Source of the DNA: Euzebya pacifica
GTDB lineage: Bacteria > Actinomycetota > Nitriliruptoria > Euzebyales > Euzebyaceae
DNA length: 64,000 nucleotides
Reading direction: 5' to 3'
NCBI RefSeq assembly: GCF_003344865.1
Contig: NZ_CP031165.1
Location: 1 to 64,000, forward strand
The notes beneath the pieces are model-generated. The model saw only the letters and a program-made list of their open reading frames with translations. It ran no database searches and was not told the origin of the DNA. The position numbers and the translations under genes were made by a program. Positions 1,420 to 13,456 of this stretch are shown here, piece by piece (within the stretch, counting starts at the first letter, position 1; the number at the start of each line of letters is the position of its first letter).

Positions 1420-1711
1420 GATTCACCCACAGGACCTCGTGGACAACCGGTGGACGGTCCTCGACGCTCCACGAGCAGAACGCGACACTGGGCTTGTCCA
1501 CATGCGCGTTCCCGGAATTACACGTGTGCCGCACAGCTTCCCCACGAGGCGGCCAACAGGGTCAAACGGCCTTTGACCTGCCGAAACAGTGGTTACCCAC
1601 AGGCATTCGTCGCCCCTACAACTACAACTGTTCCTAGAGATCTGACATCAACCCCTTAACCCGAGGGCCCGGGGAGCGGTGGAAAACACCGCCACGAGCC
1701 GAGGAGATCCC
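1420..1711. other. dnaA-dnaN intergenic region, candidate oriC
   Basis: This gene-free gap holds a consensus-type box TTGTCCACA at 1494-1502. One-mismatch boxes lie at 1438-1446 (reverse, CGTGGACAA) and 1593-1601 (TTACCCACA), with a weaker CACCCACA at 1424-1431. The stretch 1616-1660 is relatively AT-rich for this genome. In most actinobacteria oriC lies between dnaA and dnaN. This gap is short and box-poor, so the functional origin may extend upstream of the window or use other sites. Confidence 0.6.
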
Positions 1712-12743: not shown

Positions 12744-13067
12744 ATGAAGCGGTTGGTGATGGTCCTGTTCCTGGTCGGCGTGGTCGCCGCATCCAGGGGG
12801 CTGATCCCGTGGCAGCTGGTCTTCGCCCCGCTGCTCGGCTTGCTGATCTGGTCGATCGGCATCGCCTCGTTCGGGTCGCTCAACCGTGGTGCCGCCCACA
12901 TCCCCGACGGGCCGCCGGAGGCGGTGGATCCCGACGAACGGGTCACGTACACGTGCACCGGCTGTGGGGCCGAGGTCCTGCTGCTGGTCCGCGGGTCGGC
13001 CATGCCGCCCCGCCACTGCGGGGAGAAGATGCACGAACGACGCGAGGTCCGCAGCACCCGCGCCTGA
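12744..13067 (+). CDS. Membrane protein with C-terminal zinc ribbon
   Basis: 107 residues: two hydrophobic stretches (about 4-16 and 23-42), then a hydrophilic tail with CTGCGAEV and RHCGEKM, an FmdB-like zinc-ribbon arrangement (CxxC...C). The tail is probably cytoplasmic. A -10-like CAGGCT 8 bases before the ATG and absence of a ribosome site suggest a leaderless start. Function is unknown. Confidence 0.7.
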   Translation: MKRLVMVLFLVGVVAASRGLIPWQLVFAPLLGLLIWSIGIASFGSLNRGAAHIPDGPPEAVDPDERVTYTCTGCGAEVLLLVRGSAMPPRHCGEKMHERREVRSTRA

Positions 13068-13106
13068 CGCCGGGGCAGGAAATCGCACACCGGGGTGCCC
13101 CCTGGT

Positions 13107-13201
13107 TCGTCCACAGCTGTGGAGAACCCTGTGGAGGAGATTCCCGGTGTGTAGTTCCGCCCTCGGAGTTCATCCACAGACGTGGACAACCCTGTGGATC
13201 C
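13107..13201. promoter_or_regulatory. Cluster of DnaA-box-like sites
   Basis: Six 9-mers within one or two changes of TTRTCCACA lie in about 95 bases. Forward: 13107-13115 (TCGTCCACA) and 13170-13178 (TCATCCACA). Reverse: 13118-13126, 13130-13138, 13181-13189 (CGTGGACAA) and 13193-13201. No gene overlaps them. They are denser here than in the dnaA-dnaN gap. They could form a DnaA titration or reactivation site or an auxiliary origin element. Confidence 0.6.
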
Positions 13202-13225
13202 GCGGGTGCGGGCGAGCGTTGCCCG

Positions 13226-13456
13226 TCAGCGCCACTGGCTGAGGATGCCCAGCCCGACCGCCATCATGACGAAGCCCACGATGATCGCGTAGTTGCCGCC
13301 CGGCAGGAAGCCGGGGAACACGTAGTTGATCAGGATCACGATGATGCCCAGGGCGATGAGCCCCGTGCCGGCGACCGGCACCCACTGCGGGCTGGGCGGC
13401 GGATTCGGCCTCGGCGGCGGTGTGTACTGGTCGCGCTTCGACTTGGACTTGGGCAC
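13226..13456 (-). CDS. crgA: Cell division protein CrgA
   Basis: Small two-span membrane protein of the actinobacterial divisome that bridges FtsZ and the septal peptidoglycan machinery. The 76 residues begin VPKSKSKRDQY (the family's MPKSK start), have a Pro-rich cytoplasmic piece, then membrane segments WVPVAGTGLIALGIIVILI and YAIIVGFVMMAVGLGIL, and end SQWR. GTG 13456 was chosen for the family N-terminus and an AGAGGT site 6 bases upstream. Its position before the sortase gene is conserved in the phylum. Confidence 0.95.
   Translation of the reverse strand: MPKSKSKRDQYTPPPRPNPPPSPQWVPVAGTGLIALGIIVILINYVFPGFLPGGNYAIIVGFVMMAVGLGILSQWR

Follow-up and report, generated by a model that had tools for sequence, protein, structure and literature searches.

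Sites outside the replication origin that set the activity of DnaA are well worked out in Escherichia coli and little known in actinobacteria. Whether such a site exists in Euzebya pacifica, and what it might do, is a question raised by a compact group of DnaA boxes beside the cell-division gene crgA, within the 64,000-nucleotide stretch analysed here (the window), which represents the start of a 5.80 Mb chromosome accompanied by a second replicon. An earlier reading of the bare sequence (the original prediction) had reported six near-consensus boxes on both strands within about 95 bp, and had counted about three good boxes in the dnaA-dnaN gap. A scan against TTRTCCACA recovered both, with the six boxes occupying the 95 bp from 13107 to 13201 (Table 1). 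The individual boxes are weaker than TTGTCCACA, carrying one mismatch to TTRTCCACA in four of the six and two mismatches in the other two, and together they form the densest box cluster of the 64 kb (score 10), with the dnaA-dnaN gap as runner-up (score 6). Their density is far above random expectation, in keeping with the original prediction: the 95 bp contain four boxes that deviate from TTRTCCACA at no more than one base, whereas the maximum reached in 300 simulated first-order Markov sequences as long as the window was one (270 runs) or two (30 runs).

The boxes are regularly phased and resolve into two three-box modules, in each of which one box is followed by a facing box at an offset of 11 bp and then by a tandem box at an offset of 12 bp. 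The two modules are direct copies of each other, 63 bp apart and with identical box spacing, and the six boxes therefore do not represent six independent events, although the evidence from conservation presented below is independent of this duplication within the window. Genome-wide pattern searches with a degenerate version of the three-box arrangement identified just three chromosomal occurrences, namely this pair of modules and one at 569,290, together with one further match on the second replicon in which the third box is poor. Judging from these sequences, DnaA would be expected to bind the window boxes in this organism.

Table 1. Coordinates of the crgA-adjacent box cluster and of neighbouring features in the window.
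Feature	Position	Strand	Sequence	Remarks
dnaA	1..1419	+		Carries GGRDHTT DNA-recognition motif
dnaA-dnaN gap, likely oriC	1420..1711	+		Boxes at 1438, 1494, 1593; most AT-rich 25-mer at 1617, 36% GC
Small membrane protein, zinc-ribbon-like tail	12744..13067	+		Convergent with crgA; no Pfam match
Three-box module A	13107..13138	+		Box scan, genome-wide triad pattern, geometry kept in relatives
DnaA box	13107-13115	+	TCGTCCACA	Module A, faces two tandem boxes
DnaA box	13118-13126	-	TTCTCCACA	Module A
DnaA box	13130-13138	-	TCCTCCACA	Module A
Degenerate McdR motif	13139..13156	-	AACTACACACCGGGAATC	8/12 specified bases, left half 5/6; adjoins module A
Three-box module B	13170..13201	+		Box scan, triad pattern, alignment with three same-genus genomes
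DnaA box	13170-13178	+	TCATCCACA	Module B, faces two tandem boxes
DnaA box	13181-13189	-	TTGTCCACG	Module B
DnaA box	13193-13201	-	GGATCCACA	Module B
crgA, cell-division protein	13226..13456	-		Pfam CrgA, E 7e-12; 3' end faces site

The cluster occupies a convergent intergenic region, being located 3' of crgA (minus strand, ending at 13226) as well as 3' of a plus-strand gene ending at 13067, and a cluster between two 3' ends cannot be the promoter of either adjacent gene. The placement originally given, between a membrane-protein gene and crgA, is accurate, while the description of the site as standing before crgA has to be dropped, since it lies 3' of that gene. A role as the crgA promoter was ruled out by this position, and control of crgA transcription by the site is unlikely because it stands behind the gene. 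In relatives from the same class, a neighbour similar to the zinc-ribbon-like membrane protein could be read on the same side of the site. A terminator hairpin was also considered and set aside, since neither the tandem third box nor the layout of the sites in Streptomyces-like genomes looks like a hairpin. The rpmH-dnaA gap, upstream of dnaA, has three good DnaA boxes of its own (tail of L001, G000:C1:5799655-5799778), and GC skew over the 64 kb was too noisy locally to place the origin.

The proposal that the cluster should recur next to crgA in relatives was confirmed, with the cluster being kept throughout the class and in much of the phylum. For the class we compiled 61 genomes (this one together with relatives up to class level), of which 53 have a detectable crgA and 49 enough downstream sequence. 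Across these 49, the first 250 bp past the crgA stop contain a mean of 2.55 boxes compared with 0.03 in flanking windows, and two or more boxes are present in 76% of genomes and in none of the flanking windows. The same module is found again in these relatives, most genomes of families f1 to f3 having a facing offset of 11 and many of family f4 one of 13, and a few class genomes are without the module behind crgA (e.g. L012, L021, L037, L043, L044 and L048). The downstream neighbour, its orientation called by a simple codon-position rule, is convergent with crgA in 31 of the 47 class genomes scored. At sites of family f3 (e.g. L011, L028 and L042), facing pairs of TTGTCCCCA are common in place of TTGTCCACA, which suggests that TTGTCCCCA is an accepted box variant in this lineage.

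Beyond the class, 59 further Actinomycetota genomes from about 35 families average 1.56 boxes per 250 bp 3' of crgA compared with 0.04 in the flanks, and two or more boxes occur in 47% of them compared with 0.6% of flanking windows; the phylum genomes read in detail were hand-picked from an even sample for their spread and the size of their contigs. Adjacent boxes are mostly 11-13 bp apart in tandem or facing orientation, diverging pairs being almost absent, and the orientation of the module relative to crgA differs among genomes. Streptomyces-like genomes possess boxes 3' of crgA, with a convergent neighbour gene at all four of their loci, and zero or near-zero boxes were found 3' of crgA in families f13, f40, f46, f50, f76, f79 and f80.

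Among mycobacteria, in which crgA was found with a Mycobacteriales-only CrgA alignment (a phylum-wide alignment being too divergent for the scan), at least one box is present at the Rv0010c-Rv0011c position in all 79 named mycobacteria, and of all 9-mers in the crgA-adjacent gap TGTGGATAA is the best conserved. The mycobacterial gene order, with a ppiA-like gene and a PH-domain gene followed by the site and crgA, is that of Rv0009-Rv0010c-Rv0011c. The Rv0010c-Rv0011c region of M. tuberculosis, bound by DnaA in IDAP-seq and EMSA, is among the five regions with the strongest in vitro DnaA binding, and the same regions were recovered by ChIP-seq in M. smegmatis (Hicks et al. 2020, PMC7738170). 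In M. tuberculosis, variants of this site result in longer cells, as do dnaA variants, which show an unchanged initiation rate, long cells resembling those of weak dnaA alleles, and unaltered expression of Rv0010c and Rv0011c; the site itself was reported to lack an obvious counterpart in other species (PMC7738170). Both the window and M. tuberculosis (where the distance to dnaA is about 13 kb) have a cluster directly 3' of crgA, Rv0011c in the latter, and both combine a facing pair of boxes with a tandem third box. By position, boxes and module, the window site thus appears to correspond to the Rv0010c-Rv0011c site. The two differ in that the downstream gene is a co-directional bacterial PH-domain gene in M. 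tuberculosis and a convergent zinc-ribbon-like membrane-protein gene in the window, that the module is doubled in the window, that its offsets are 11 and 12 rather than the mycobacterial 10 and 13, and that an adjoining box for the regulator McdR, discussed below, is complete in most mycobacteria but reduced to a half site in the window. What is new here is this proposed correspondence of the mycobacterial site across the phylum, DnaA binding at the mycobacterial site being already known.

The distance between crgA and dnaA is about 10-50 kb in most genomes and exceeds 50 kb in some, and in one genome (G004) crgA lies on the opposite side of dnaA with the site retained. For the 57 genomes in which both genes share a contig, box number decreases with this distance when kinship is ignored (Spearman -0.43, p 0.001), a correlation that leans on a few distant cases; a near/far split at 50 kb alone, with kinship again ignored, is non-significant (Fisher p 0.06). 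Zero boxes were found where crgA is 86, 129 and 568 kb from dnaA, and two boxes in each of the genomes in which it is at 75 and 116 kb. When five genomes with a distant crgA were examined for a replacement, only G203 was found to have another clear oriC-proximal cluster. In this genome, which has no boxes behind crgA, the cluster is located in the gyrB-gyrA gap (L121 9970-10008; G203:C1:4400969-4401007), and the gyrA ORF contains an apparent intein.

A further feature of the site is an 18-bp palindrome that, with sites listed by module, adjoins the 5' end of the outer box in many families. Its consensus, AATnACAynnrTGTnATT, matches the published motif AATnACAnnnnTGTnATT of McdR (Rv1830), an essential cell-cycle regulator (PMC9040748). 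The consensus was first tested on the same genomes in which it had been noticed, and a later test on the same sites used the published motif. At least 10 of its 12 bases are matched at 38 of 110 crgA sites, the corresponding figure for background windows being 4 of 1654, and at all but four of these 38 motif-bearing sites (34) a box begins no more than 2 bp (0 to 2) from the motif end. The motif is rare: of the 18 genomes searched, one has none and each of the other 17 has between 1 and 7 occurrences. Besides crgA it is found, among other locations, on the promoter side of WhiB-family genes in several families, and at mycobacterial whiB2, where the motif is found at the promoter, McdR acts as a repressor (PMC9040748). 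Sites with the motif were also seen beside DUF3263 genes (Rv0430-like) in two families (L229 and L234). Using as query the gene found beside an Rv1828-like MerR paralogue, we identified a relative of McdR in all 26 genomes tested, including the window's organism, in which two McdR-like genes are present, one on the chromosome near an Rv1828-like gene (G000:C1:2448154-2448585) and one on the second replicon (G000:C2:179764-180186). HigA2, which has been reported at the same mycobacterial gap with the motif ATATCAC(N)6GTGATAT, was rejected as the reader of the palindrome, the phylum consensus being a better fit to the McdR motif.

Published McdR operators are promoters such as that of whiB2, and the same palindrome adjoins the DnaA module in many lineages, whereas the window has a half motif only. 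Here AACTACACACCGGGAATC occupies the position at which other lineages carry the full AATnACAnnnnTGTnATT; its 8 matching bases fall below the operator threshold of at least 10 of 12, and its score is not above local background. In an alignment with three same-genus genomes, the nearest relative was seen to retain the McdR half AACTACA, and at the crgA sites of the four Streptomyces-like genomes the motif was not detected. Because the window motif is degenerate and at background level, the involvement of McdR in this organism is put forward as a suggestion only.

With regard to function, the original interpretation as a titration or reactivation site is retained in part: the sequence is best read as a DnaA-regulating site separate from oriC, while a formal DARS or datA label is not warranted, the spacing differing from that of the DARS core. 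We give about an even chance to the site being an oriC-linked, non-origin DnaA-assembly site that acts by titration, and it probably helps to control the timing of chromosome copying. DnaA would bind each three-box module cooperatively, with one monomer facing a tandem pair on boxes 11-12 bp apart, and because the site is copied right after initiation it would pull DnaA off oriC and the dnaA promoter, thereby damping re-initiation. Titration is favoured because the site is oriC-linked and mostly located between convergent genes, and because oriC-linked clusters of Streptomyces coelicolor (H69, H24 and D78), which Smulczyk-Krawczyszyn et al. are said to have described in 2006, reportedly titrate DnaA, the boxes 3' of crgA in Streptomyces-like genomes being a further point of likeness. 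In another phylum, oriC-proximal box clusters of Bacillus subtilis reportedly regulate initiation (Okumura et al. 2012, as cited in PMC5742627).

For many actinobacteria we infer that McdR on the abutting box would displace or remodel DnaA, resulting in its release; in the window's organism DnaA alone may act at the site, since the McdR box there is a half site. When overexpressed in M. smegmatis, McdR prevents division and increases the copy number of ori-proximal DNA (PMC9040748), which would fit a release of DnaA from the site, other causes being possible; the main text of that study makes no mention of crgA, Rv0010c or DnaA. A broader and more tentative proposal, to which we attach somewhat less than an even chance, is that a composite DnaA-McdR switch near oriC beside crgA is an ancestral component of Actinomycetota replication control, in which DnaA on the facing three-box module and McdR on the motif overlapping the outer box would couple division status to DnaA activity.

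The main rival to titration, although on balance unlikely, is a DARS-like reactivation in which ADP-DnaA on the facing boxes would lose its ADP and become able to rebind ATP, promoting initiation. The window module has the topology of the E. coli DARS1 and DARS2 cores, in which box I faces a tandem pair II-III with an offset of 12 bp, but its I-II offset is 11 bp (10-13 in relatives) rather than the 14 bp of DARS1 and DARS2. Furthermore, the window site is near oriC, unlike its E. coli counterparts DARS1 and DARS2, and neither IHF nor Fis sites are shown for it. The E. coli offsets of 14 and 12 were read from the MG1655 sequence, and the core spacing of DARS1 and DARS2 is reported to be the same (PMC5742627). 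Speaking for reactivation, variants of the M. tuberculosis site resemble dnaA variants, and long cells fit weak alleles or reduced DnaA activity; taken with the unchanged initiation rate of the dnaA variants, these weak-allele-like cells are easier to reconcile with a positive site than with a sink. That the site instead promotes hydrolysis of DnaA-ATP in the manner of datA, rather than titrating passively, seems improbable. Like the window site, datA is a cluster of boxes in non-coding DNA away from oriC, comprising one tandem and one facing pair at 12 bp, and oriC linkage would also fit, but the window site is closer to oriC and, the McdR box (degenerate here) aside, no co-factor site was identified in it that would take the place of the IHF site of datA.

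We are similarly doubtful of a transcriptional element, whether a DnaA/McdR operator for the neighbouring gene or a DnaA roadblock ending crgA transcription. In its favour, the next gene in mycobacteria is co-directional and starts near the site, and McdR is a known repressor at whiB2; against this, convergent genes flank the site in the window, in the 31 class genomes and at the four Streptomyces-like loci, so that no promoter would be served there, the module is variably oriented with respect to crgA, and expression of Rv0010c and Rv0011c was unaltered in dnaA variants (PMC7738170). The second half of a bipartite origin, also raised at the outset and suggested by the presence of DnaA boxes near dnaA, is unsupported and very improbable. 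A 25-mer GC scan of 12900-13400 found no AT-rich unwinding element beside the boxes, the lowest 25-mer (44% GC) falling inside crgA compared with 36% in the dnaA-dnaN gap, and the bipartite reading is rejected on account of this absence; in addition, the distance from site to dnaA varies from 11 kb to more than 50 kb, and in one genome the site lies on the opposite flank of dnaA. Finally, a chance cluster or functionless local repeat is hardly credible, for although the modules are direct repeats and part of the box count derives from one duplication, conservation across the phylum relative to local background contradicts it.

The mapped mycobacterial site is a target of recurrent clinical mutation, and our data make it one member of a family that extends across the phylum and repeats one type of module geometry, many lineages of which have a built-in motif for the essential cell-cycle regulator McdR. 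This family offers a concrete hypothesis for the coupling of division to replication, as well as harmless laboratory species in which function may be worked out. If the composite switch is real, the isoniazid-tolerance-linked tuberculosis site would be one copy of an ancestral switch.

Two other places on the E. pacifica chromosome have clusters with perfect boxes. The third three-box module (G000:C1:569287-569319; L128 7288-7320), about 0.57 Mb from dnaA, includes two perfect TTGTCCACA boxes and is also situated between convergent genes, named by eye as a HerA-like ATPase and a siderophore-interacting-protein-like gene. A cluster at G000:C1:1532707-1532868 (L129) likewise has two perfect boxes, and its neighbours, again named by eye, are a crotonyl-CoA reductase-like gene and a zinc-dependent-protein-like gene.
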